Assembly (NCBI RefSeq): GCF_900093605.1
Contig: NZ_FLYE01000012.1
Coordinates: 124,001-188,000 of the forward strand
Reading direction: 5' to 3'
DNA: 64,000 bases
Source: Candidatus Terasakiella magnetica
GTDB taxonomy: Bacteria > Pseudomonadota > Alphaproteobacteria > Rhodospirillales > Terasakiellaceae
Each line of letters starts with the position of its first letter. Positions within the stretch are counted from its first letter, which is position 1. A model generated the notes under the pieces. The model was not told the DNA's origin and did not search any database. It worked only from the letters and a program-made list of their open reading frames with translations. A program made the translations under genes and the position numbers. Positions 1-36,836 of the stretch are shown here, piece after piece.

Positions 1-438
1 AATCTGGCCTTGCGTTTGCTCAGGGTCTTCATCAAGACATAAGTAAGGAATTTCCATAGCCTCAAGCATCTCCAGCATAACGCGACCCTGCTTTACATGC
101 TGGGGCTCATCTTTCACACCGGGTTCACCACGCCAGCCAATCAACAAAAGCATGGGGATATTACAGACTTCTGGATCAACCATAGACAGGATCGGATTGA
201 CCACATTGCCCAAGCCTGAATTCTGCATATAAACACAGGGAATTTCACCTGTCGCCAGATGGTATCCAATCGCCAAGCCAACGGCGCCACCTTCATTTGC
301 CGCAATCAAATGTTTATCCGTGGATAGATTATCAGAAAGATACGCACAAAAATTCTTCAGCAATGAATCCGGCACACCGGAAAAGAAAGTAATCTTTGAA
401 GTTTCTAGCTGCTTATAAAACTGGCTTGGGCTTAACAT
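1..438 (-). CDS. ppd: Phosphonopyruvate decarboxylase (3' part beyond window edge)
   Basis: Thiamine-diphosphate enzyme that decarboxylates phosphonopyruvate to phosphonoacetaldehyde and so pulls the unfavourable PEP mutase reaction forward. Only the first 145 or so codons are in the window; the rest lies left of position 1. The visible part has the ThDP-enzyme start with SGVPDSLL, an ANEGGAVGLAIGYHLATG helix carrying the conserved glutamate, QNSGLGNVVNP, and a GWRGEPG.KDEPQHV stretch, all characteristic of phosphonopyruvate decarboxylases. The ATG at 438 shares one base with the stop codon of the PEP mutase gene (TAATG), so the two are almost certainly translated together. A following transaminase gene, as in aminoethylphosphonate clusters, could lie outside the window but is not seen. 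Confidence 0.9.
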   Translation of the reverse strand, partial: MLSPSQFYKQLETSKITFFSGVPDSLLKNFCAYLSDNLSTDKHLIAANEGGAVGLAIGYHLATGEIPCVYMQNSGLGNVVNPILSMVDPEVCNIPMLLLIGWRGEPGVKDEPQHVKQGRVMLEMLEAMEIPYLCLDEDPEQTQGQI

Positions 439-1739
439 TATCTTGTCCCTGGGATTAAATCGAGCACCGCTTTAATCGGCATACAATCCTTATCAACCTC
501 ATAACTGCGACCATTATCAAGGATGGTTTCCGCAACCCCCATCATGCTTGGATACGCAGCACGCAACAAATGGTTTGCATAAATCACCACACGCACGCCA
601 TTGTCTCTCAGCTCATCTTCATGAGTCTGATTATAACTCGAAGGAACGGCAAACAACGGTTTTGTCATAGGCAGTGCATTATATTGACGGCAGAATTCAA
701 AAACTTCATCCGGTTGTTTTAATCGACTATGGATTAAAATACCATCAGCGCCAGCTTCCAAATATTTTTTAGCCCGCATGATCGCATCATCGACGCCTTT
801 CTCAAGAATCAGACTTTCGATACGCGCAACCACCATAAAGTTTTCAGTCACTTGGGCTCGTTTTCCAGCGCGGATTTTATCAGCAAAATCATCCGGATCA
901 GCCTGTTCCTGTTTAACTTCATTTCCAAACAGCGAATTCTTTTTTAAGCCGACTTTATCTTCAATCACAACAGCCGAGACACCATGGCGTTCTAATGAAC
1001 GTACCGTATAGACAAAATGCTCAATCTTACCGCCTGTATCCCCATCAAAAATAAACGGCTTTGTTGTAACTTCAAAAATCTCATTGATAGTATTAATACG
1101 ACTTGAAATATCAACCAGTTCAATATCTGGCTTACCTTTAACAGTAGACTCCGTCAGACTGCTGCCCCACATGGCGTCAAACTGAAGCGACGCCCCGTCT
1201 TTTTTAACTTCTGCATGTTCGACCACAAGACCAGACAAACCATTATGGGCTTCCATAACCTTGACCAAAGGCTTGTTATCCAGAAGCCGTTTTAATGTGT
1301 TCAAACGAATATCCGGTGTGATCCCGATTTCTTTTTGAGCTGCATGAAGCTTTGTTGAGGAAATCCCTTGCGTATAGGGAAACTCTACAAGCTCTCCTCC
1401 CCATTCAGACAAGATAGAAATAACTTTTTCGCGTGTCTTTTGCTGCACGCCTGTTTTCCAGTCATCACCATGCACCACCACATCCGGTTTGTAGGCTCTC
1501 AAGTTATCTTCATAATCCAATGATTCTTGAGGAACAACACGTGCAACACCCTTGATACATTCAATCACCTGCTTTCGCTGCTCATAAGACATCATGGGAA
1601 GCCGCTTGTAACTCGCAATGGCACGATCAGTTAATAAGCCAATCGTTAAGTCACCAAGAGAGGAGGCGTTATTAATCATATTAATATGACCTGGATGGAC
1701 CAAATCCGCACTCATACCCATATATATATTTTTAGTCAT
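438..1739 (-). CDS. pepM: Cytidylyltransferase-phosphoenolpyruvate mutase fusion
   Basis: Bifunctional protein of 433 residues. Residues 1 to about 135 are a TagD/RfaE-type nucleotidyltransferase, with HPGH at residues 15-18 and a GISSTKL motif that binds nucleotide in this family. The rest is PEP mutase of the isocitrate-lyase superfamily, with the diagnostic [10 protein letters not shown] loop near residue 260. PEP mutase makes the C-P bond (PEP to phosphonopyruvate). The fused transferase is expected from other pepM fusions to activate a later phosphonate with CTP; this substrate is inferred. The start ATG follows a GGA seven bases upstream. Its neighbours, phosphonopyruvate decarboxylase downstream and a TagF homologue upstream, fit a CMP-phosphonate route to a phosphonate-decorated glycan. 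Confidence 0.93.
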
Positions 1740-1847: not shown

Positions 1848-4415
1848 TCATTTTGCATGATTTAATGGAATAAACTTACCACCCTTTATCATTCGTCCAC
1901 CCAATTCCACTGTTGGGTCCATTCTCAGAGAAAGGGGCACCTCAGAATCATAAAGATACGAGAAAACGACCGGGAAGATATCCTGATTAATCAACACATC
2001 TTGGTCATACTTTTGCGCTTTTTCCTGGTCAGGCCAATGAACCGCAAAGATTGTCCCAACCCGGTCACGCATGTGAAGCTCAGTTACTTTTTTCGGGTCC
2101 ATATAATTTAAAGTATGACAATTCAACGTCAGATACGGTCCATGATCTCCAATCACAATAATAATAGCAGCTGGGTCATGCTCTTTGATTAAACGAAAAT
2201 CTTCTTCTAGATAGTCGATGGCAATCTTATAGCGTTCAATAAACTGTTCTTTTTCATCGGGTAAACATTGACCGGAATTTTGTGAATGCCCGGGATATTC
2301 ACCATGATACAGCATAAAGAGAGGGGACTGTTTATCTTGGCGAATTAAGTCATGCTTAACGCGTTCATAATCAAATTTCGCCCCATATTTTGTTAACCCT
2401 TTGATATCAAACTTAAACTCACGCAAACTGATACCTTTAAGCAACATAAACAAAAAGTCCATTTGACCTGCTTCAACAGAAACTGGTGGCAGGCGATTGT
2501 TATACCAATTGTAAATACCCGTCATAAACGTCTTTGTTACAATGGCTGTCTCATAGCCCATATCTTTAAGCCAGAGATTGGCAATGGATTGACCGCCAAC
2601 AATTTTACGCATCTCATTCCCATCGGTAATGCCATCTTTTAACCCCATGGTTTTTGACATACTAGATAAAGAGAATGGACCCACACTGTAGGTATCGTCA
2701 TATGTGGTAAAATTATATTTCTCAAACAAATCCTGTAAGGGCTTGTGGTCAATGCCAAGCTTTTGCAATGTGCGTAAATCCGGCATAGATTCCGAGACAA
2801 TATAATAAATATTTGGGGTTTGCGGTGTCGCCGTTAACCCAGTCTGTGTCTTTTTAATCAAAGACTGGATTTCTTCTACACCAGAACGCCCGGCAAAATC
2901 ACTGCCCACGACTTTATCTTTATGAGTCGTTAATGTCTGAATGCCCAAAATGGAAATATTGATCAAAAAAAACAGAATAAAGAAACTATAAAGAACCTTA
3001 GTGCCTTGTCGGTATAAAAACGTGAAAAACACATATGTAATGCTTAGGACCAGCGCGTATTCTGCATAATAAGAAGACCAAATCAAAATGCCATGAACCG
3101 TTGGTAACATCACAAATGAAAACAGTACGACACTGCCCACGATTTCCCAAGCAACCCAGCCCGATAAGCCTCTAACATATGGCATAGAGAAGACACTGAA
3201 ACACAGGGCAAATAAAATGCCGATTCCAAAATACAATGGTGCCGTTGAAGCAAAAATAAAGGCACTGTTATTTAACCAATGAAACGCCAATGCAGCCAAG
3301 ACAGCAGCGATTGAAAAGAAAATATATTTCTTTTGGGAAAAATCTTCCTGTTTTTTGATCAAGAAGAAACAACCCAATGCTGAGACCAACAAAACCACAA
3401 GCGGGATAATATAAAGCGGCACCATATTGTAATAGAAGATCAAGTCAATCAGACCCGATAAATAGTGACGCAGTTCTTTAAAAAAGAAAACGAAGATAAC
3501 AGCAATGGCGGAGACAAAGACTACAGCAGCACCAATAACATATATATTTAAGCGAAAACGACTGACAAAAACCGATATGAAACTGAATGAAAAAGTCGCA
3601 ACGGCAAAAAACAGAATAATCCTGACAAGGATATTCGGCGTATCTTCAATTGAGGCTAACTCAGCAAAGGCCTGAACCGTTAGGAAACAAAAAACAAAAG
3701 CCATGAAAAGGCTTATATTGGGAATATTCTTCTTAATCTTTTCCATATCAACCAAATCATTAAAAGCAATGTTCATTTTCTGGTGCTTGTGCTGTAAAGC
3801 AAAAATATTACGCCCCAGTAAGATCAAATTATTAAATGTCCAATAAAGCAAGATGCCCGCATTTGCCTCATAAAGCGCAATCAGGAAAAGAAGCGAAATC
3901 ACGATGGATTGATAAATTTCTTTCTTTTGCGCATTGGCTAAGGTCAGAGCTGCCAGAATATTCACCACAGTCATTACGACAGGTAAAATATTCATACCTG
4001 CAAGTAATTGATCTGCTTGGCCTAAATCCCTGATAAATAAAAACGACTGACCTTCCAATTGCGACAAACCTGTCAGCATAAAATAGGTCGCAATTAAAAA
4101 CGGTAACTGAACAAACAGCGGCAGCACCAAACGCACCGCATAAATAGGATGATAACTATATCGTTTATATAATAACCTGAGCTCTTTATGAAATGCCTCG
4201 CCATGTAGTTTCTCTTTCATATCTTCGATTTGAGAAACTAGCACATCCTGATATGCACGTTCTGTATGAGAGACTTTTGCAGCTCTTTTTGTTAAGGGCG
4301 ACATTACCAGCGCACTTAAAAAGGACAAACAAATAATCGCCCCGCCATATGAATCAACAAGAGAAACAATCAGAAGGAAAAAATCGGCATAAAGCGACAC
4401 AATATAATTAAGCAT
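1848..4415 (-). CDS. YidC/Oxa1-like domain fused to a sulfatase/LtaS-type domain
   Basis: Large inner-membrane protein of 855 residues with an unusual architecture. Residues 20-215 match the YidC/Oxa1 core: PLT at 40-42, a cytoplasmic charged loop, a P..VQLPFL.A.Y.ML helix, a short periplasmic FIRDLG segment and a LLYWTFNNL last helix. The conserved groove arginine of insertases (TFIVRG in E. coli) is alanine 35 here. About ten more membrane helices follow (about 235-530), then an alkaline-phosphatase-superfamily domain (about 535-830) with VSESMPD, GPFSLSSM (probable Ser nucleophile), HGEYPGHS and IGDHGPY, as in phosphoglycerol and phosphoethanolamine transferases. It overlaps the TagF-like gene by 8 bases and has a GGGG Shine-Dalgarno seven bases before ATG. 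Likely role: transfer or remodelling of a phospho- or phosphono-substituent outside the membrane; this is inference. Confidence 0.85.
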   Translation of the reverse strand: MLNYIVSLYADFFLLIVSLVDSYGGAIICLSFLSALVMSPLTKRAAKVSHTERAYQDVLVSQIEDMKEKLHGEAFHKELRLLYKRYSYHPIYAVRLVLPLFVQLPFLIATYFMLTGLSQLEGQSFLFIRDLGQADQLLAGMNILPVVMTVVNILAALTLANAQKKEIYQSIVISLLFLIALYEANAGILLYWTFNNLILLGRNIFALQHKHQKMNIAFNDLVDMEKIKKNIPNISLFMAFVFCFLTVQAFAELASIEDTPNILVRIILFFAVATFSFSFISVFVSRFRLNIYVIGAAVVFVSAIAVIFVFFFKELRHYLSGLIDLIFYYNMVPLYIIPLVVLLVSALGCFFLIKKQEDFSQKKYIFFSIAAVLAALAFHWLNNSAFIFASTAPLYFGIGILFALCFSVFSMPYVRGLSGWVAWEIVGSVVLFSFVMLPTVHGILIWSSYYAEYALVLSITYVFFTFLYRQGTKVLYSFFILFFLINISILGIQTLTTHKDKVVGSDFAGRSGVEEIQSLIKKTQTGLTATPQTPNIYYIVSESMPDLRTLQKLGIDHKPLQDLFEKYNFTTYDDTYSVGPFSLSSMSKTMGLKDGITDGNEMRKIVGGQSIANLWLKDMGYETAIVTKTFMTGIYNWYNNRLPPVSVEAGQMDFLFMLLKGISLREFKFDIKGLTKYGAKFDYERVKHDLIRQDKQSPLFMLYHGEYPGHSQNSGQCLPDEKEQFIERYKIAIDYLEEDFRLIKEHDPAAIIIVIGDHGPYLTLNCHTLNYMDPKKVTELHMRDRVGTIFAVHWPDQEKAQKYDQDVLINQDIFPVVFSYLYDSEVPLSLRMDPTVELGGRMIKGGKFIPLNHAK

Positions 4416-5715
4416 CTGGCGACCCCTTCTTGGTATTTATCTCATTGGCTTGAGTCCTTATATACTCAACAATATGAGAAGCAGAATCACCGAAATTAAC
4501 AACCGTTTCTTGTCTGAATTTTTCTATTTGTTCTTGTTGGTTTTGCTGCAAAATCTCTTTCACTTTTGACGACAAAATATCGATTGTGTCTTTATCCAAC
4601 ACTTCACCAATAAGAGCAGAAGATGTTTCTGACCAGGTTATGTCGAAATATTTACTTTCAAACTCATCCCTATTTTCTTTTGGGATATCCAGCGTAATCA
4701 CCGGTTTTAAATATAAAAAAGCGTAATCAAAACGAATTGATGAGGTGTCTGATATCAATACATCTGATGAAGCCATCGCCTGATGGGCAAACAATTCCTG
4801 GTCCCATGCCACATTATGAAAACCTGATAACTCTTCCTTCCACAAAGCCACTTTCTCAGCCTCGCTAATATGAGACTGTGGATGAAGGCGGATGATGATT
4901 TCATATTCCGCTTTGGCTAATTCTTTGACAAAACCAACACCATATTCTGAAAAACATCCCTTGTTTCCCCATGAGGGCGCAATGAGAACAGTCGTTTTAT
5001 CTTTCTTTTTCTGGGCTGGACCCTCACTTGGCATATGATGCAACATATCATCAAGATAGGGCAGACCGAGCGCAACATAGTCTTTCTTTTTGATGTTACG
5101 GATTTCTTCGATTTTCTTTAAATCGGCTTCCTGATGAGGCCCGACAAGAATAACACCATCATAAAAATCAAGACTACCAAGACGATAATTTGATGTCCCA
5201 CTCATGGCATGAAACATATGGACAAGCTTGCCAATAAAGGGAGATTTTTTCATTGGGTAATCAACTGACCCAATATTAGGCGTTGTCGCCAACATCAAAG
5301 GCGTTCTGATTTTCGCTAATTTGGCAAATGACCAATTGCTCTTTGAATATAGTCTTGAATGCATATAAGGGCTCGATATACGCAACGCCGGATCATATAG
5401 GTCCATACTGATATATCGAAAATGTATTTTTCGCCGGATCAACTCATTGATGATTGGGCGAAATGTACCCCAATAACTTTTACCCTCACTAAAAACGACC
5501 AATGTATCTTCGCTCACTTCAAATCCGTCTGAACGGTCTTGACGCGTCAATTTAAAATAAAGTGATTTGAACGAATAAATTAAGGCCCCAAAAACAGCCA
5601 GAACTGTGCTCAACAGAACACTACCTGTGCCTGGATCAAGATAAGCATATGCAACTTTCGGAAAAAGCAGGATGGAGCAAAATGCTCCCAAAACGATTTT
5701 GACCATATGTTGCAC
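4408..5715 (-). CDS. CDP-glycerol glycerophosphotransferase (TagF) family protein
   Basis: Membrane-associated transferase of 435 residues. The N-terminus is a hydrophobic segment followed by AYLDPGTGSVLLST and a second helix, a module common in small glycan-cluster membrane proteins. From about residue 70 it is a GT-B-like glycerophosphotransferase, with an IAPSWG strand and the family motif DTSSIRFDYAFLY...PVI near residues 345-360. Relatives move glycerol-phosphate or ribitol-phosphate from CDP carriers to glycans. Next to a cytidylyltransferase-PEP mutase fusion the donor here may instead be a CMP-phosphonate, which is inference. I chose the GTG at 5715 because an AGG lies five bases upstream; the ATG at 5706 would be too far from it. 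Confidence 0.85.
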   Translation of the reverse strand: MQHMVKIVLGAFCSILLFPKVAYAYLDPGTGSVLLSTVLAVFGALIYSFKSLYFKLTRQDRSDGFEVSEDTLVVFSEGKSYWGTFRPIINELIRRKIHFRYISMDLYDPALRISSPYMHSRLYSKSNWSFAKLAKIRTPLMLATTPNIGSVDYPMKKSPFIGKLVHMFHAMSGTSNYRLGSLDFYDGVILVGPHQEADLKKIEEIRNIKKKDYVALGLPYLDDMLHHMPSEGPAQKKKDKTTVLIAPSWGNKGCFSEYGVGFVKELAKAEYEIIIRLHPQSHISEAEKVALWKEELSGFHNVAWDQELFAHQAMASSDVLISDTSSIRFDYAFLYLKPVITLDIPKENRDEFESKYFDITWSETSSALIGEVLDKDTIDILSSKVKEILQQNQQEQIEKFRQETVVNFGDSASHIVEYIRTQANEINTKKGSPDA

Positions 5716-5840: not shown

Positions 5841-7115
5841 TCAGGCGTTTTCTTTCTGAGAAGCCACCATCCCCAGACAAAAGCAAATCAGACATAAAAA
5901 TGAAAGCTGCCACCAACTTGACCAAAAAGAAACATTAAACAGTCCAATTGCCCAAAACCCTGCATTTACTGATATAAAAGCCAGATATGGTGCCTCTTTT
6001 GTCCGCCAATATCTTCTACTTGCAATATACAATGCATATAAAAGGGCACCTAATAACGGCAAAAACCCAATAAGCCCCGTATCTAATGCGATTTCCACCA
6101 TCCAGTTATGCGGATGCCCCGGTAAAATTTGTGATTTGGTAAAAGATGTCGGTTCCTCACCTTCTGGCAAGTAATGGGCTAAGCCGTTCTTGGCTTCCGG
6201 CATGTAATTTGATGCATTTACCCCATATCCAACCCAAGGCGATTGCATAATTTTTTCTGCAGAAAAACGCCATATAAACTGGCGATGTAAATCAACAATC
6301 CATAACGGAGCATATGCCAGTTTCTTTTCAAATGGCATATAATGATCTGCGCGTTCCTCAAGATAATCATAAATAGGAAATGCGGAGATTATCAGAGCAA
6401 GACTGGCAAAGATAAAGAGAGGTTTACGGCGCCAAAAAATCGGTAAAAGAATAATGAAAAAGGCTGCCAGCACCATCAACACACCACCGGCTAAAGTCGC
6501 CCTTGAGTGGATCATAAAAGCAAAGGCAAAAGGCAAAAGCACATTAATGATGCATAAAAAACGCCATTTAGTCGTCTTTAAATAAAGAACTGCCAAGACA
6601 CTAAGAGGCACACTGAGAATCAATGCATTACCAGCAGGCTTTAAAACATCCGCCACATTCGTAAAATACCATCCCTTCAGTCTGAGAAACATTAAAAATT
6701 CTGGAACAAAAATGACTGAAAATAGTGCAATGGCGAGAAAAAATGTGATGGAAACCTGAAATGTTTTTAGCGTGAGTTCTTTGCGATAAGAACAAGCAAA
6801 ACCAAGCAAACCACATAAAAAAGCAAAAAGACCCACACGTAGCCAAGCTTCAAAAGAAAGGCCCGGCTTTAGTGAAAACACAACACTGGGTAACCATAAA
6901 AGCCAGATTCCAACCCCAACATACACCGCTTTTCTTTGCAGTATTCTGACAAAGTCATGCCAAACGAGGTTACGTTCTGAGGATAAAATAAAACACAGCA
7001 AAGACAAAAATAACGCCACCCCAATCGCCACTGGCCCCAACACTAAAGAGGGCAATGCCAACCCATAACAAACTGTCATGCCAATAAAAAACTTAGAAGG
7101 AAGGGATTGATTCAC
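5841..7115 (-). CDS. O-antigen ligase (WaaL/Wzy_C family)
   Basis: Polytopic membrane protein with about a dozen hydrophobic segments. It has a large periplasmic loop ending in GHPHNWMVEIALDTGLIGF near residue 345, which is the Wzy_C signature with the HxxN-type motif of ligases and polymerases. Such proteins join undecaprenyl-linked O-polysaccharide to lipid A-core, or polymerise repeat units; the sequence alone does not separate the two. The open frame runs up to a TTG at 7142 with no ribosome-binding site, so I take the GTG at 7115, preceded by AGG seven bases upstream. It sits between the FkbH-like and TagF-like genes in one minus-strand series. Confidence 0.82.
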   Translation of the reverse strand: MNQSLPSKFFIGMTVCYGLALPSLVLGPVAIGVALFLSLLCFILSSERNLVWHDFVRILQRKAVYVGVGIWLLWLPSVVFSLKPGLSFEAWLRVGLFAFLCGLLGFACSYRKELTLKTFQVSITFFLAIALFSVIFVPEFLMFLRLKGWYFTNVADVLKPAGNALILSVPLSVLAVLYLKTTKWRFLCIINVLLPFAFAFMIHSRATLAGGVLMVLAAFFIILLPIFWRRKPLFIFASLALIISAFPIYDYLEERADHYMPFEKKLAYAPLWIVDLHRQFIWRFSAEKIMQSPWVGYGVNASNYMPEAKNGLAHYLPEGEEPTSFTKSQILPGHPHNWMVEIALDTGLIGFLPLLGALLYALYIASRRYWRTKEAPYLAFISVNAGFWAIGLFNVSFWSSWWQLSFLCLICFCLGMVASQKENA

Positions 7116-7175
7116 GAATATGCCTGTAAATATCTTACGCAAGGAATGCTACAATAGGTACTAAAAGGACTGAAA

Positions 7176-9074
7176 CTATTTTTCAATCACAATTGGAATT
7201 TCAGGCTGGATATATTCAGCAACCTTAAAGGAATATTCCCTTAAACCATCGTCTGTTTCATTATCCATGACAAAACCAAGATTCAAATAATGGTCTGAAA
7301 CAATAGCATTTCGTTGCGTTGGAATATAAACACCTTTTATTTCCTTTAAACCACGCTCACGAGCAACTTTAACAAGTTGTTCAAAAGCTAATTGTTCAAG
7401 TTTTCTGCCCAAAACTCGACAACTCATAATCCACGTATCAATTTCCAGATAAGTGCCCATATCTTTCGCAATAATAACGCTAATCATACCATTATCTGCA
7501 AAAGAATCCTGTAAACGAACTTGGAATGTTACATAATCGGGGCTTGCCATAAACTGACGCACAGCAGTTTCACCATGACGTCTCGTCGTCAAATTAAACT
7601 GATTTGACTTTGAAATAAGCTGAACAGTACGCTTAAGCCCGTGCTCATCAAAAGCCTTAAACTGTGCTTTCATTTCCAATGAGTTCAAGTATTCATCAAT
7701 ATCCCCTGCTTTATTTTTCAGTTCAGCTCTTCGGGCATTATTTTGATAATCCTCCACACGCATTTTATCTTCAGTCGAATAATGAATAGCTTCGAAATAA
7801 CCAGCTGCAGACAATGTCAGAACATAGTTTGATGCGTCCGCTGGTAATTCAGGTACTGCGACCTGTGGCAAAGCTTTACGGACAAAACCGCGCTCCATGG
7901 GATTATCATCGAGAAAAACAAATGATTCCAAACCCAAATCTAATGTTTCTGAGATGGCCCGAATGTTCGTTGCTTTATCTTCCCAATTTGCTTGAAAAAC
8001 AGCAATATGCTCCTCACGGATCTTCATATCGGGATGATCACGAAACGGTTCGCGTGCAATTTCATCAGTGTTTTTAGAAGAAACTGTTAGAACAATACCG
8101 CGTTTGCGTAAATTAAAAACATAATTTTGCAAATTCCAATGCGCTTCAGCAACAGGATCCCCCTGCCCAATTTTAATACCGGACATACCATCGTCACCAA
8201 TAATGCCACCCCACATGGTGTTATCAAGGTCCAAAACGATTGCACGGCGCGTTTTTCCTCTTTTTGCAGCAATGACACGACATAAATGTTCTGCATATAA
8301 AGGAAGACATGATTGAGAAAAAGGCACTTTTGCAATGTTATACATCATCGCATCATACCATTTTGAAAGGCCAACCGTTTCACTGAGGCTCGCAACATCC
8401 AATAAATGATGATCAGACGCCGCAACTTGAGTACAAATAAACTCATTTAAAGCATTCGTCATCTGACGATGTGTATTAAAAACAAGACGGTCTAAACTAC
8501 CAAAAATATTTAATGGTGTATGTGCCAAAGTCTGTACAATACACGACACGCCATACCGTGTTGAAAAGCCATTAATCAAATGAGAAATATAATTCTCACA
8601 TTTCTCAATTTGATCCGAAGATACACCAAACTCCAAATCATCCATATTCAAGGGCAGAGCATTTGCATCCAAAGCAAGTAAAATAAAATCTGGCTTTACC
8701 TCATCGAATGCTGAACACCCTGTCAGAGCCGTTTGCATTAGCTGTCCATAAGGAGCCTCTACTACATTAATATCAAAACCATAACGTAAACCAGAAGCAA
8801 CAATCGCCGGACTGAAAAAAGAAATTGTCGAATTGGAAACAATACCCAATGTAATGCTTTCTAAAGGCTTCAAATCAGCCTTTGCATCTGAGACTTTCAA
8901 TTTCTCGCATGTCTTTGCTAATTTTTCCAGTTGCATCAATGTTAAACAATGAGAAGCCAAAAAACGCAAATCTGCGCCCTTACAAGAACTTTCAGCAAGA
9001 GCTTTTAGATCATTCTTGAAAGTTGCAGGTGGTTGAGGCAACCATTGTAAATCCAGAAATAGATCCTGTGTCAT
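7176..9074 (-). CDS. FkbH-like HAD-IIIC protein (SGNH-like, HAD and GNAT-like regions)
   Basis: Protein of about 632 residues with the full FkbH layout. An N-terminal SGNH-like region (about 60-270) is followed by a HAD-IIIC phosphatase-like domain starting at the RAIVLDLDNTMWGG motif (about residue 285) and continuing through SSKN and LDDNPMER, then a GNAT-like C-terminal region with YLEIDTWIMSCRVLGR. FkbH proteins take 1,3-bisphosphoglycerate and load a glyceryl unit on an acyl carrier protein; shorter relatives in flagellar and O-antigen islands are thought to do similar three-carbon loading. A free acyl carrier protein is encoded at 14479. The frame can be extended to a TTG at 9083, but the ATG at 9074 is preferred. 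First gene of the minus-strand series. Confidence 0.85.
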   Translation of the reverse strand: MTQDLFLDLQWLPQPPATFKNDLKALAESSCKGADLRFLASHCLTLMQLEKLAKTCEKLKVSDAKADLKPLESITLGIVSNSTISFFSPAIVASGLRYGFDINVVEAPYGQLMQTALTGCSAFDEVKPDFILLALDANALPLNMDDLEFGVSSDQIEKCENYISHLINGFSTRYGVSCIVQTLAHTPLNIFGSLDRLVFNTHRQMTNALNEFICTQVAASDHHLLDVASLSETVGLSKWYDAMMYNIAKVPFSQSCLPLYAEHLCRVIAAKRGKTRRAIVLDLDNTMWGGIIGDDGMSGIKIGQGDPVAEAHWNLQNYVFNLRKRGIVLTVSSKNTDEIAREPFRDHPDMKIREEHIAVFQANWEDKATNIRAISETLDLGLESFVFLDDNPMERGFVRKALPQVAVPELPADASNYVLTLSAAGYFEAIHYSTEDKMRVEDYQNNARRAELKNKAGDIDEYLNSLEMKAQFKAFDEHGLKRTVQLISKSNQFNLTTRRHGETAVRQFMASPDYVTFQVRLQDSFADNGMISVIIAKDMGTYLEIDTWIMSCRVLGRKLEQLAFEQLVKVARERGLKEIKGVYIPTQRNAIVSDHYLNLGFVMDNETDDGLREYSFKVAEYIQPEIPIVIEK

Positions 9075-9295
9075 TATAATCAATCCAATGCAGGGAAAAT
9101 TTAGCGATTAAGTCACTCTTATATCCTTTTTTTCCATTCTTCGTACATCATAATTTTCCATAGTCAAATGACATTTAAGAAAGGCTTTTCTCATAATTCC
9201 CAACTCAAAAACGAATTGATTCGACTCTTTATTTTCTGATTAAAGACGTGTATTGATGGGGCTTCGAACAGTCCGACACCTTTCCAAATAAAGAA
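9075..9295. promoter_or_regulatory. AT-rich divergent intergenic region
   Basis: About 220 bases separate the divergent FkbH-like and MBOAT genes, so both promoters must lie here. The region is strongly AT-rich. I could not single out a convincing -35/-10 pair or operator by eye. Confidence 0.4.
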
Positions 9296-10891
9296 ATGCT
9301 CTTTAATTCAGACATATTTATTTTTGTTTTTTTGCCTCTCGCAATCATTACATATTTTGCCCTTACAAAAATAAAGGCAAATAAGGCGGCTGTTTTTTCT
9401 CTATTTTTCTCGTCTTGCATTTTTTATGCATGGTGGAATCCTCCCTTTATTTTCCTTCTTCTGGGATCCATCTTCGTAAATTTCATCATTGGAAATATTC
9501 TACGTAACTTTGAACACGATAGAAAACGAAGCCTAATATTGGCAATTGGAATAATATTTAATATCTCATTACTTGGATATTATAAGTATTTTAACTTCGC
9601 AATTATGAATATTAATTTTGCGTTCGACCTAAATATCCCACACTCCGATATTTTTCTTCCTTTAGCAATTTCATTTTTCACCTTTCAACAAATTGCTTTT
9701 CTAATTGATATCTATAATGGCGAAATAAAAAAACTTAACCTGCTAAACTACTGTGTATTTGTTTCTTTCTTCCCGCAATTAATTGCAGGCCCAATCGTCC
9801 ACCATAAAGAGATGATGCCGCAATTCGAGGATGAATATAAAAAACATTTCCATTTAGAGAACTTTCTTATCGGCTTAAGCATCTTTTTTATCGGCCTATT
9901 TAAAAAAGTTGTCATTGCAGACAATGTTGCAGAATTCTCAACGCCTGTATTCACAGCTTCTGCTAATGGTGAAATCATCACCTTTTATGAAGCATGGCTT
10001 GCAAGCCTCGCATATACATTTCAGTTATATTACGATTTCTCTGGCTATTCCGACATGGCAATCGGCTTAGGCCGCATGTTCAATATTCGCTTACCGTTGA
10101 ATTTTAATTCACCATTAAAAGCAACAAGTATCATCGATTTCTGGAGAACCTGGCATATGACACTGTCACGTTTTATCAGAGATTATGTTTACACTCCTAT
10201 GAGCATCCCATTAGTCAGATATGCAGTTATAAACAGATACAGCAAAAAAGGGGTTTTCCTTACCTCAACTGCATTACCCACAATCATTGCTTTTGTTGCA
10301 GTCGGGTTATGGCATGGCGCGGGCTGGGCCTTCATCATTTTTGGTTTCATGCATGGCTTCTATCTCGTCATTAATCATGCGTGGCGTGAATTAAAACCGA
10401 AAAAAATGCAACTAACCAAAAGTATGTCACTTGTTACGCGTTATGCCGCGCGTTTGCTGACATTTTTTGCCGTTCTTATTAGCTTGGTTTTATTTAGAGC
10501 AGAAGAAGTTACCCCTGCATTAAACATGTTAAGCAGTATGTTTGGACTAAATGGTCTGACTTTCCCTGCATTCAGTAGTACTGCAAATGGCTCTCTTGCT
10601 CATTTACTCAATCAAGACTTTGGCATTGAATTTGTGCAAGAGCGCTTTATTGACTCCGGTTTAAGAATTGCAACTCTCTTGATATTGGGTCTATTTGCGC
10701 TTACGTGGGGTTTCCCCAATACATATCAAATCATGCATAAATTTGAACAAAGAAAAGAAATCCAAGCTCATTCCCTCAGCTTCTTACAGTGGAATTTCAA
10801 CCGAATAACTGCAATTTATATGGCAGCTGTCGCATCTTATGCACTCTTACAAATTGGTAAAAATTCAGAGTTTCTGTATTTTAATTTTTAG
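9296..10891 (+). CDS. MBOAT-family O-acyltransferase (AlgI/DltB-like)
   Basis: Polytopic inner-membrane protein of 531 residues that moves an acyl group across or at the membrane to an extracytoplasmic acceptor. It carries the MBOAT signatures: DFWRTWHMTLSRFIRDYVY in the middle (about residue 280) and GLWHGAGW with the invariant active-site histidine (about 340), then FMHG. Length and hydropathy match AlgI, PatA and DltB. The next gene, six bases downstream, is a membrane-anchored SGNH protein, the usual partner in alginate acetylation (AlgX/AlgJ), peptidoglycan acetylation (PatB) and teichoic-acid alanylation (DltD). The acyl donor could be acetyl-CoA or, given the ACP and FkbH genes here, an acyl-ACP. 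Confidence 0.9.
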   Translation: MLFNSDIFIFVFLPLAIITYFALTKIKANKAAVFSLFFSSCIFYAWWNPPFIFLLLGSIFVNFIIGNILRNFEHDRKRSLILAIGIIFNISLLGYYKYFNFAIMNINFAFDLNIPHSDIFLPLAISFFTFQQIAFLIDIYNGEIKKLNLLNYCVFVSFFPQLIAGPIVHHKEMMPQFEDEYKKHFHLENFLIGLSIFFIGLFKKVVIADNVAEFSTPVFTASANGEIITFYEAWLASLAYTFQLYYDFSGYSDMAIGLGRMFNIRLPLNFNSPLKATSIIDFWRTWHMTLSRFIRDYVYTPMSIPLVRYAVINRYSKKGVFLTSTALPTIIAFVAVGLWHGAGWAFIIFGFMHGFYLVINHAWRELKPKKMQLTKSMSLVTRYAARLLTFFAVLISLVLFRAEEVTPALNMLSSMFGLNGLTFPAFSSTANGSLAHLLNQDFGIEFVQERFIDSGLRIATLLILGLFALTWGFPNTYQIMHKFEQRKEIQAHSLSFLQWNFNRITAIYMAAVASYALLQIGKNSEFLYFNF

Positions 10892-10899
10892 GTCAATTG

Positions 10900-11856
10900 A
10901 TGAAAACGTTTGTTAGTACCCTTATCGTAGCTTTTATTTTCCTTACGATATTGTTCCTTGTTTTTACACCTAACTCACTTTTCCCCAGTATCGCCAATTG
11001 TAATCCAAACGGCTATAAAGAAGGGTCTTATCTGGCCTATTGTGCAGAAGAACGTTATGGCGATTACGAACATTGGGCTTTTTTAAATAACGCAGAACTA
11101 GGGATTCAGGAAAATTTACTAAAAGCTGATATCCTCTTTTTAGGTAATAGCCGTACCCAATATGCTTTTTCATCACCTAAGACGGTCAACTATTTTAATA
11201 AACAAAAGAAAGACTTCTATGTCGCGGGTTTCGGATATAGCGAACAAGGTTTATTCGCTCGAAAACTCATACAGAATATTGGACTAAAGCCTAAATTAGT
11301 CGTCATTAATGCTGATCCATTTTTTACCGATTTCTCTTCGGCTATTTCCAAAGAGCTAGAAAAAACAGATATTCGCTTAACTCTAAAATATAAATTGAAA
11401 AAATGGCAACAAGGCTTGCACGAATATATTTGTAATTCTCAGAAAAATACAATTCTCTCTTCTTACTTATGTGGAGAACAACGCGTTTTATATCGCGAAA
11501 TTGCAACTGGATTTTGGGATACACGTTTCTTTGCTAAGGATGGAGGGTATCCTGTTGATTACCTCAAAACAAACAACCTCAGCAAACGAGTTGAAGAATC
11601 ATTACCATTTGCAAAAGCATTCTTACAAGAAACAGAGATCAAACCTGAGTGTGTAATTATTACTGTTATTCCACATGTCGCAACAGAACTGGATTTTGGA
11701 AAACAATTGGCCAAAAAATTAAACCTGCCAACAATTATCCCCAAAATTAATGGCTTGAAGACAAAAGATAAAACACACTTAAACCAAGACAGTGCCAATA
11801 TATGGTTAGAAAGTTTCTATCACAAACTCACGCCATTCTTAAATAAATGCACCTAA
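10900..11856 (+). CDS. Membrane-anchored SGNH-like protein, probable MBOAT partner
   Basis: Protein of 318 residues with one N-terminal membrane anchor (about 3-24) and the remainder predicted periplasmic. The FLGNSRTQYAF stretch (about residue 87) has the nucleophile serine in a GNSR context, and KDKTHLNQDSA near the C-terminus supplies the D-x-x-H pair, so the catalytic triad appears intact. No close named family is recognised, but the layout is that of DltD/AlgJ-type partners of MBOAT transferases. Its gene follows the MBOAT stop by 8 bases. A TTG at 10897 could also start it; the ATG at 10900 is preferred. Confidence 0.7.
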   Translation: MKTFVSTLIVAFIFLTILFLVFTPNSLFPSIANCNPNGYKEGSYLAYCAEERYGDYEHWAFLNNAELGIQENLLKADILFLGNSRTQYAFSSPKTVNYFNKQKKDFYVAGFGYSEQGLFARKLIQNIGLKPKLVVINADPFFTDFSSAISKELEKTDIRLTLKYKLKKWQQGLHEYICNSQKNTILSSYLCGEQRVLYREIATGFWDTRFFAKDGGYPVDYLKTNNLSKRVEESLPFAKAFLQETEIKPECVIITVIPHVATELDFGKQLAKKLNLPTIIPKINGLKTKDKTHLNQDSANIWLESFYHKLTPFLNKCT

Positions 11857-35711: not shown

Positions 35712-36836
35712 TGACTCATTAAGGGATTCCCAAAAGGGTTGATTTATGATTCAACATAGAAAACGAACAGGAGTTTTCTATGCGTCCCCCACTTCCCTTG
35801 CGATCTGATTTTAATGCCGATGATTTACGCCAGTTAGCCAAACAAAGTAAAAATGCCGATCAAGCCCGCCGATTGTTGTGTTTAGCGTCTATTTATGATG
35901 GCTCTTCTCGCACAGATGCCGCTAATCTTGGTGGTGTGACAGTTCAAATTATTCGGGATTGGGTCATTCGTTTTAACGAGGAAGGCCCAGCTGGTCTTAT
36001 CAATAAACATGGCGGCGGTGTTCCCTCTTTGTTAAATGATGAACATCGCAAAGCTTTAAAAGATATTGTGGACCAAGGACCAATCCCTGCTATTCACAAT
36101 GTTACACGTTGGCGATTATGCGACTTAACTCAATGGATTTGGGAAGAGTTTCGTATTTCGATATCAACAACTGTGTTGGGGAGAGAACTGCGTAAAATGG
36201 GCTATCGTAAACTTTCGGCTCGCCCGTGTCATCGCACCCGTAATGTTGAAGCCATGGAGGGTTTCAAAAAAACTTCACAACCAGAATGGCAGAAATCAAA
36301 GAGCAAAAAGCTCAAGGAAAAACCATAGAAGTCTGGTTTCAGGACGAAGCTCGCATCGGCCAAAAAAACAAGATTACACGACGTTGGGCCAAACGAGGGA
36401 CACGGCCCGAAGCATTACAGGATTTACGAACCCGTTCAGCCTATATCTTTGGAGCGATTTGCCCCGAACACGGTAAAGCCGCAGGGATTATTATGCCCAA
36501 GTGCAATACTTTTGCCATGGAAGTCCATCTTGAAGAAATCTCTTTGGCAGTGGATGAAAATGCCCATGCCATTATCATCATGGATCAAGCAGCATGGCAT
36601 ACATCAAGCAAATTGAAATGCCTGATAACATTACGATTGTGCCTTTGCCGCCCAAATCACCAGAGCTTAACCCTGTGGAAAACATTTGGCAGTTCATGCG
36701 ACAAAACTGGCTTTCAAATCGCATATTCAAATCCTATGAGGACATTGTGAATATTTGCTGTGATGCTTGGAACCGTTTGAGTGAGCAACCGTGGAGAATT
36801 ATGTCCATTGGGAACCGGGAATGGCTCTATCGGTCA
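35712..36836 (+). mobile_element. IS630-family insertion sequence, decayed
   Basis: About 1.1 kb, inserted in the IS30 transposase in opposite orientation. Imperfect terminal inverted repeats of 20 bp (14 identical) run inward from TGAC at 35712 and from the complement of TCA at 36836. The right flank is TA, the usual IS630 target, but the left flank is TG, so the expected TA duplication is not clean. Exact ends are therefore approximate. Confidence 0.75.

Follow-up and report, generated by a model that had tools for sequence, protein, structure and literature searches.

A YidC-like core joined to an outer transferase domain in a phosphonate operon suggests reuse of an insertase fold for cell surface decoration

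The window, i.e., the whole 64,000-nucleotide stretch of Candidatus Terasakiella magnetica analysed here (contig NZ_FLYE01000012.1, forward strand positions 124,001 to 188,000), encodes a protein in which a relative of the insertase YidC is joined to a periplasmic phosphate-type transferase in one gene. The parts of this fusion gene were assigned as follows, in window positions.

1848..4415, minus strand: fusion of YidC-like, membrane and alkaline-phosphatase-superfamily parts, 855 amino acids (aa)
3786..4415, minus strand: YidC/Oxa1-type five-helix core, residues 1-210
4311..4313, minus strand: Ala35 codon; the residue aligns with groove Arg366 of E. coli YidC (alignment, column counts)
3840..3842, minus strand: Trp192 codon; the residue aligns with Tyr517 of E. 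coli YidC
2901..3785, minus strand: membrane region, residues 211-505 (hydropathy)
1851..2900, minus strand: alkaline-phosphatase-superfamily (LtaS/EptA/YejM-like) domain, residues 506-855
within this domain: putative site residues E542, S582, D757 and H758 (assigned by alignment)

In the structure model, the N-terminal part was predicted to have the Oxa1/YidC core fold and the C-terminal part the catalytic-domain fold of the alkaline-phosphatase superfamily. Over 197 residues, the core was 22% identical to E. coli YidC, and it scored 74.7 bits on TIGR03592 (cut-off 84.3), i.e., it falls outside the NCBI insertase subfamily. An ordinary YidC is also encoded in the genome, in addition to the fusion gene. 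A reading of the letters and translations, hereafter the sequence-only reading, had described a YidC fold without the groove arginine fused to an alkaline-phosphatase-superfamily transferase, and this observation was confirmed by the predicted folds of both ends and by alignment. In residues 211-505, eight hydropathy peaks were called and a ninth was seen by eye near 449-467. An odd number of helices would place the C-terminal domain outside.

The sulfatase part of the window protein had no Pfam or NCBIfam match at E 0.01 and was identified by profile and fold. PDB matches to the family profile were, by sequence, LtaS, LtaP, MCR-1 and many sulfatases, and the fold matches of the modelled outer domain include LtaP and LtaS, with YejM as the best. 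LtaS and EptA use phospholipid head groups as donors. In the alignment of 41 fused proteins, the first metal position was D in 39 and E in two, the nucleophile position was T in 37 and S in four, and the Asp-His pair was invariant (D 41/41, H 41/41). The intact metal motifs of the sequence-only reading were borne out, i.e., the acidic, Thr/Ser, Asp and His positions were kept in 41 of 41. By alignment, the domain appears to have the metal ligands and Ser/Thr nucleophile of membrane phospho-transferases. A separate protein on Leptolinea plasmid AP024711 (L032 9311-11044; loci are designated by L and a number) was 32% identical to window residues 514-847, and no TagF- or YidC-annotated gene was found among its listed neighbors, many of which are hypothetical.

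The fusion gene lies in an operon. On the minus strand, the order was TagF-like gene (5715-4408), fusion gene, cytidylyltransferase-phosphoenolpyruvate (PEP) mutase gene (1739-438) and phosphonopyruvate decarboxylase gene, followed by an iron alcohol dehydrogenase, a transglutaminase-like gene and two glycosyltransferases. The neighbors within the window are listed below.

4408..5715, minus strand: TagF-like transferase, 435 aa (PF04464 E 2.2e-11; alignment)
438..1739, minus strand: cytidylyltransferase-PEP mutase fusion, 433 aa (TIGR02320 E 5.2e-121, PF01467 E 1.6e-14)
1..438, minus strand: phosphonopyruvate decarboxylase (Ppd), first 146 codons; the gene extends past the window (genome C12:123308-124438)
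5841..7142, minus strand: O-antigen-ligase-like (Wzy_C) membrane protein, upstream neighbor (PF04932 E 6.2e-14)

The TagF-like protein has the PF04464 domain and a His that is invariant in an alignment of five TagF-like proteins and that we take to be catalytic. It scored 22.3 on the TarF equivalog model (cut-off 550) and is not assigned to TarF. In its residues 4-49, two hydrophobic stretches flank a YLDPGTGS motif (codons 5643-5620; hydropathy). The PEP mutase domain scored 403 bits on TIGR02320 against a cut-off of 319.55 and contains EDKXXXXXNS, the PEP mutase signature (PMC6697681). Ppd scored 495.9 bits on TIGR03297 (E 6.2e-149; cut-off 312.5), and the operon thus has the signature-bearing PEP mutase and the Ppd of a Pnt gene cluster. 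Fom1, a PEP mutase (PepM) fused to a cytidylyltransferase, makes cytidine monophosphate (CMP)-hydroxyethylphosphonate (PMC6697681). Because Ppd and PEP mutase exceed their cut-offs and Fom1 gives a precedent, CMP-hydroxyethylphosphonate is the predicted donor of the window operon. The Wzy_C-like neighbor gives a possible glycan context.

The family was followed across bacteria. A search of 60 relatives and 385 genomes of the class gave five further members (L004/L037, L023, L024, L025, L026), and the idea that the family is peculiar to the window's genome was rejected. A TagF-like gene adjoins the YidC-like gene in four of these five. Genome contigs were then scanned with the alignment of the five TagF-like proteins (window plus four), and the best 80 of 193 confirmed loci were read. 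A YidC-like open reading frame (ORF) was fused or on the same strand within 500 bases in 64 of the 80, a rate that is partly built in, as all queries had been chosen beside YidC-like genes; it lay 2,480 bases away in one locus and was not found in 15. The gap from TagF to the YidC-like gene was at most 50 bases in 54 of 65 loci, with 4-base overlaps in 18 of 65. These 65 loci came from 12 named phyla plus five unplaced records. Across all 80 loci, a sulfatase-like ORF was found in 68, PepM, PhnW or Ppd in 26, and amidate-pathway genes in five. In the 62 well-flanked loci, i.e., those in which the sequence extends more than 2.5 kb to either side of TagF, YidC-like genes were found in 55, sulfatase-like ORFs in 57, PepM/PhnW/Ppd in 21, amidate genes in five, and some donor gene, by loose markers, in 49.

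As the YidC rate of the TagF scan is partly built in, Spirochaetota were sampled YidC-first. A family match of at least 154 bits was found in 24 of 149 genomes, mostly in ORFs of 870-1,030 aa, and ORFs of ordinary YidC size reached 143 bits at most. Family members and ordinary YidCs were told apart by score and ORF length, in this sample by these alone. One of the 24 genomes was the already known L105 center genome, and one stretch was read per genome, while several genomes hold more copies than that stretch. A same-strand TagF-like gene was present in 18 of the 23 fresh stretches, within 500 bases in 10. The module of TagF-like, YidC-like and transferase proteins is well supported. Among the matches listed for 398 genomes of the window's own phylum, only the window genome stood clearly above ordinary YidCs (298 bits against 98.5 for the next), and therefore the family is rare in this phylum.

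A broader companion than PEP mutase is a gene for a cytidylyl-activated donor, as seen by loose markers in the 49 well-flanked loci. Donor labels were given by phmmer with one query per family, and the nucleoside triphosphate (NTP) transferase label is broad. Judged by such labels, nearby genes often appear to make cytidylyl-activated phosphonate, phosphoramidate-type or other donors. Above curated cut-offs, a 2-aminoethylphosphonate (AEP) substrate-binding protein was found in L090 and an AEP transaminase in L079. In L090 (1120-5359), and similarly in L091-L094, L098 and L101, a glycerol-3-phosphate-type cytidylyltransferase and a 2-aminoethylphosphonate-type ATP-binding cassette (ABC) importer precede the TagF-like and YidC-sulfatase genes; the L090 importer is above the TIGR03261 cut-off. 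It looks as if phosphonate were imported and reused directly for the surface in such loci. PRK05849-type genes, presumably for glutamine kinase, were found next to the module in L070 (2168-7888), L137 (3465-7929), L143, L145 and L146, with gamma-glutamyl-cytidine diphosphate (CDP)-amidate hydrolase-like genes in L070, L137, L143 and L146, not in L145. A phosphoramidate donor pathway next to the module outside Campylobacter is possible. In Treponema putidum (L105, genome G798), six YidC-like copies lie in one region, the genome also has one ordinary YidC, and a PEP mutase gene lies about 34 kb from the region.

YidC and sulfatase form a single ORF in 48 of the 65 loci, where split or broken genes (e.g., L104, L105, L125) were counted as separate ORFs. 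Standalone YidC-like ORFs of 213-367 aa were found in L070, L105, L118, L125, L127, L128 and L037. A separate sulfatase-like ORF accompanies them in all but L037, adjoining in L118, L127 and L128 and several genes distant in L070. In L037 (3446-4090), the standalone Arg-less YidC-like protein is beside a methyltransferase-like gene, by eye. L135 (678 aa) and L140 (676 aa) encode single YidC-then-TagF proteins with a sulfatase ORF upstream, and Pfam confirmed both domains in L135. A long form, 530-562 aa in length, in which additional sequence precedes the core, was found in eight loci, i.e., four Pseudomonas, one Desulfoarculaceae and three other proteobacterial records by title. The extra part is read as a YidC P1-like domain; in the L137 protein, the match to an NCBI full-length YidC model starts at residue 218. 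The YidC-like ORFs of L068, L089 (second copy), L099 and L124 end at contig ends, so that L124 (206 aa) is no evidence of a standalone form, and L136 has a short YidC-like match of ambiguous form.

Tandem copies were compared over the first 215 residues, i.e., the YidC part, and beyond residue 520. Identities were 96 and 51% in L079, 90 and 55% in L089 (one copy truncated), 99 and 34% in L096, 99 and 41% in L112, 91-99 and 49-53% in L194, and 81-94 and 41-50% in L179; in L076, L105, L180 and L182, the first part was 50-64% and the rest 32-39% identical. Near-identical YidC parts with strongly diverged transferases thus stand in one locus in L096 (9240-14712), L112 (9297-15765), L079 (5484-11770) and L194. 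Where examined (L096, L112, L089), the divergence starts right after the YidC core; in L096, identity falls between residues 220 and 260. The L096 YidC part differs by 29 synonymous and three other codons, which points to selection on the protein. Pairs between loci with at least 80% identity in the first part were compared as well: two at 95% keep 79-84% in the rest, two D. piger records show 100 and 97%, L086/L087 show 95 and 60%, and six others (among Duodenibacillus or Mailhella records) show 84-90% against 34-65%. YidC-sulfatase to TagF copies numbered 3:1 in L179 and L194, 2:1 in L180, 3:2 in L182 and 5:2 in L105 (standalone copies counted). In the TagF scan, L079, L089, L096 and L112 were 2:1, 59 loci were 1:1, one was 2:2, and one had two TagF genes and no YidC. 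The near-constant YidC part with variable transferases suggests that a common YidC front end may serve one TagF-like enzyme, with acceptor-specific transferases behind it.

The groove residue of ordinary YidCs was K in 50 and R in three of 53 Pseudomonadota ORFs, and all 51 distinct sequences have R or K. In the family, 63 of 73 distinct domains have neither; the window domain, with Ala35, is one of them and lacks the positive charge of insertases. R/K is kept in ten, namely all eight long forms plus both YidC-TagF proteins. The 73 domains remained after identical domains and three gapped rows were dropped, and the 81 family ORFs include four loci fetched twice (L033/L070, L034/L084, L035/L122, L036/L103). 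In the spirochaete stretches, all 38 family ORFs (L105 included again) have N, T or S in the groove. At the position of window W192, Trp was found in 62 of 63 Arg-less domains, the remaining row being gapped. G-C-P at 96, 97 and 99, common to 51 of 51 ordinary YidCs, is mostly missing in the Arg-less clade. On a tree of 122 rows, the 63 Arg-less rows stood on one side of a branch with a Shimodaira-Hasegawa-like approximate likelihood ratio test (SH-aLRT) value of 98, and the groove R/K state changed once. As this was a quick tree with several long branches, the window's included, and without L135, it was used for no more than the deep split and the one R/K change. The TagF anchor follows the groove: 50 anchored TagFs stand beside Arg-less forms and none beside R/K forms, while ten anchorless TagFs stand beside R/K and four beside Arg-less forms (19 not readable), counts that come from related sequences and from a scan whose pattern partly selected the YLDPGTGS motif.

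The sequence-only reading had called the groove arginine one that insertases need. This was not supported as worded: E. coli YidC with R366A or R366N complements fully when Trp or Phe is at 517, although the arginine of S. mutans YidC2 is essential beside Trp (PMC8920935), and the clade has Trp there. Because these results differ, the loss of Arg is informative on ancestry and not decisive on function, and it was rejected as proof of lost insertase function.

The following pathway is proposed. Judging from the gene content, 2-hydroxyethylphosphonate would be the product of PEP mutase, Ppd and the iron alcohol dehydrogenase, and the cytidylyltransferase domain of the PEP mutase fusion would convert it to CMP-hydroxyethylphosphonate. 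The TagF-like enzyme, which its YLDPGTGS motif would anchor at the membrane, may move the phosphonate from CMP to an inner-leaflet lipid. The charged lipid would be carried across the membrane by the YidC-like core, whose relatives scramble lipids. Judging from its conserved site residues, the outer domain would then take the group onto its Ser/Thr nucleophile and pass it to a glycan, much as phospholipid head groups are handled by LtaS and EptA. It is very probable that such loci encode a three-part machine for surface phosphonyl or phosphoryl transfer. Lipid charging plus flipping by the YidC-like part is proposed tentatively, with a probability just short of even. The fusion gene as the membrane and outer half of a machine placing phosphonate on a surface glycan is held with the same reserve.

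Recruitment of an insertase fold as a scaffold, flippase or docking module, as supposed by the sequence-only reading, agrees with the fold, the fusion, the phosphonate operon and the recurrence; among these roles, the flippase is tentatively favored. Three points, none of them strong, speak for flipping rather than a mere scaffold. The first is position: a cytoplasmic donor enzyme stands on one side of the core and, on the other, an outer enzyme with the lipid-using relatives LtaS and EptA. Copy ratios are the second point, and the third is that E. coli YidC and Oxa1-family proteins scramble lipids in vitro and in simulations (PMC10491306).

Several findings weigh against the phosphonate-flipping pathway. 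Residues 211-505 are modelled with low confidence, and the best fold match of the outer domain is YejM, which we take to be a regulator with no known transferase activity. On TIGR03405, the model for the phosphonoacetaldehyde reductase that hydroxyethylphosphonate would require, the iron alcohol dehydrogenase scored 190.9 bits (E 2.7e-56), under the cut-off of 423.7. PEP mutase was near in 20 of the 80 TagF-scan loci only and was rejected as a constant partner. Of the sequence-only expectations, the Arg loss recurs in most homologs and the pepM neighborhood in a minority. Donor markers were not found in 13 and a YidC-like gene not in seven of the 62 well-flanked loci; among the seven, L075 is followed by a run of N, and in the remaining six the TagF gene is more distantly related. 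To these points are added the built-in YidC rate and the broad NTP label. In the fresh spirochaete stretches, the TagF-like gene was absent in five of 23 and more than 500 bases away in eight of 18, and no TagF was found on the 6-kb stretch read for L037. Docking would explain the constant YidC part of tandem copies no less well than flipping, gene conversion could contribute to it, and the L112 copies are 98.6% identical in DNA in the YidC part, so that recent copying or gene conversion is equally likely there. We know of no such pathway in which a lipid intermediate has been seen.

The YidC-like core might be a docking platform only, which holds the TagF-like enzyme while the outer domain uses an ordinary phospholipid or the product of another flippase. 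The natural TagF-YidC and YidC-sulfatase fusions and the tight gene coupling fit this as well as flipping, and anchorless TagFs go with R/K forms (10/14 anchorless against 0/50 anchored readable pairs). However, docking leaves a whole five-helix core with conserved aromatic and polar positions unexplained and requires another carrier across the membrane, and it is considered unlikely, though a serious contender. Less likely again is a core that is still an insertase, i.e., a chaperone inserting the TagF-like anchor helix or its own membrane region. The activity of E. coli R366A/N with Trp or Phe at 517 and the Trp of the Arg-less clade agree with it (PMC8920935), as does the TagF anchor found only with the Arg-less form among readable pairs. 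A covalent fusion to a transferase or TagF would be odd for an insertion catalyst, however, and the TagFs beside R/K forms carry no anchor. Moreover, the clade mostly lacks the G-C-P of ordinary YidCs, and an ordinary YidC is encoded in the window's genome and in eight of nine further genomes searched; in the ninth (L135), the second YidC match is a 473-aa ORF matched in two pieces.

The outer domain could also be an LtaS-type polymerase or hydrolase, with the phosphonate genes serving another pathway. LtaP and LtaS among the fold matches, and several loci with glycerol-3-phosphate-type cytidylyltransferases and no phosphonate markers, speak for it; PepM, PhnW or Ppd genes on the same stretch at 21 of the 62 well-flanked loci (26 of all 80) and in the window operon make it quite improbable. 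Chance resemblance or an assembly artefact, to which the missing Pfam match of the window's sulfatase part might point, is refuted by the recurrence across loci and has practically no probability left.

Returning to the flipping core, a wider proposal can be made, and it is more doubtful. An Oxa1/YidC clade may have left insertion and become a lipid flippase in phosphonate, phosphoramidate and polyol-phosphate machines across many phyla, as a constant front end with swapped acceptor-specific transferase domains. If so, the clade would fill in the still unknown final steps in the making of bacterial phosphonoglycans and, to our knowledge, would offer the first case of an Oxa1-type protein given over to the transport of a lipid-linked metabolite; such use of an Oxa1-type protein would be of a new kind. 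The component folds and the phosphonate tailoring setting are already known, and the new element is the company kept by the YidC-like gene. In the PubMed Central literature searched, where most hits came as listings, no description of a YidC relative in phosphonate or glycan transfer was found. The larger share of bacterial phosphonate capacity is believed to be directed at the cell surface (PMC6697681). For what follows CMP activation, the module offers concrete candidates, with a gene order recognizable in many phyla, and it suggests the reuse of an insertase fold in cell surface decoration. The Oxa1 superfamily thereby gains a possible job beyond protein insertion, consistent with the report on lipid scrambling (PMC10491306). 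A constant YidC with variable transferases in tandem copies is a possible route to diversified surface decorations.

Other genes were noted in the window. An MBOAT/DltB-like protein is followed by a weak DUF1574-like protein (9296-11856), a typical glycan O-acylation pair, and an FkbH-domain protein (7176-9083, TIGR01686 above cut-off) lies inside the surface-glycan region. At 35780-36750, two overlapping ORFs look by eye like a two-frame IS630-type transposase.

The module was compared with known systems. With YidC/Oxa1/Alb3 insertases (PF02096, TIGR03592), the window domain shares the five-helix core and the Trp at the 517 position, as in 51 ordinary YidCs. It differs in having no groove R/K, Ser for Thr at residue 31 and an inserted stretch with Arg95, in its fusion to a transferase and its genomic setting, and in scoring below the TIGR03592 cut-off. 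LtaS/LtaP, EptA/EptC/MCR and YejM are anchored by about five helices, whereas the window anchor is a YidC core plus about nine helices, and its outer site is a Glu/Ser variant. TagF/TarF CDP-glycerol glycerophosphotransferases (PF04464) share the catalytic domain with conserved His residues; the window TagF-like protein differs by a signal-peptide-like and membrane anchor with YLDPGTGS and by predicted donors that include phosphonates among others. GtrABC-type systems resemble the proposal in cytoplasmic charging, flipping and periplasmic transfer, an analogy by inference alone.

As in Pnt clusters, PntC and PepM-cytidylyltransferase fusions (PMC6697681), a PepM-cytidylyltransferase fusion and Ppd lie near the module. 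The main text of that paper contains no occurrence of the words 'YidC', 'sulfatase' or 'CDP-glycerol', and it describes the tailoring steps after CMP activation as unknown. PhnW fused to an NTP transferase near the module is a further likeness to Pnt clusters. A likeness to the donor pathway of Campylobacter O-methyl phosphoramidate is seen in L070/L033 and the Pseudomonas loci, which have gamma-glutamyl-CDP-amidate hydrolase-like and PRK05849-type genes. The hydrolase-like proteins score 70.1 and 111.7 against a cut-off of 250, and the transferase step, in contrast to Campylobacter, is here TagF-like plus YidC-like.

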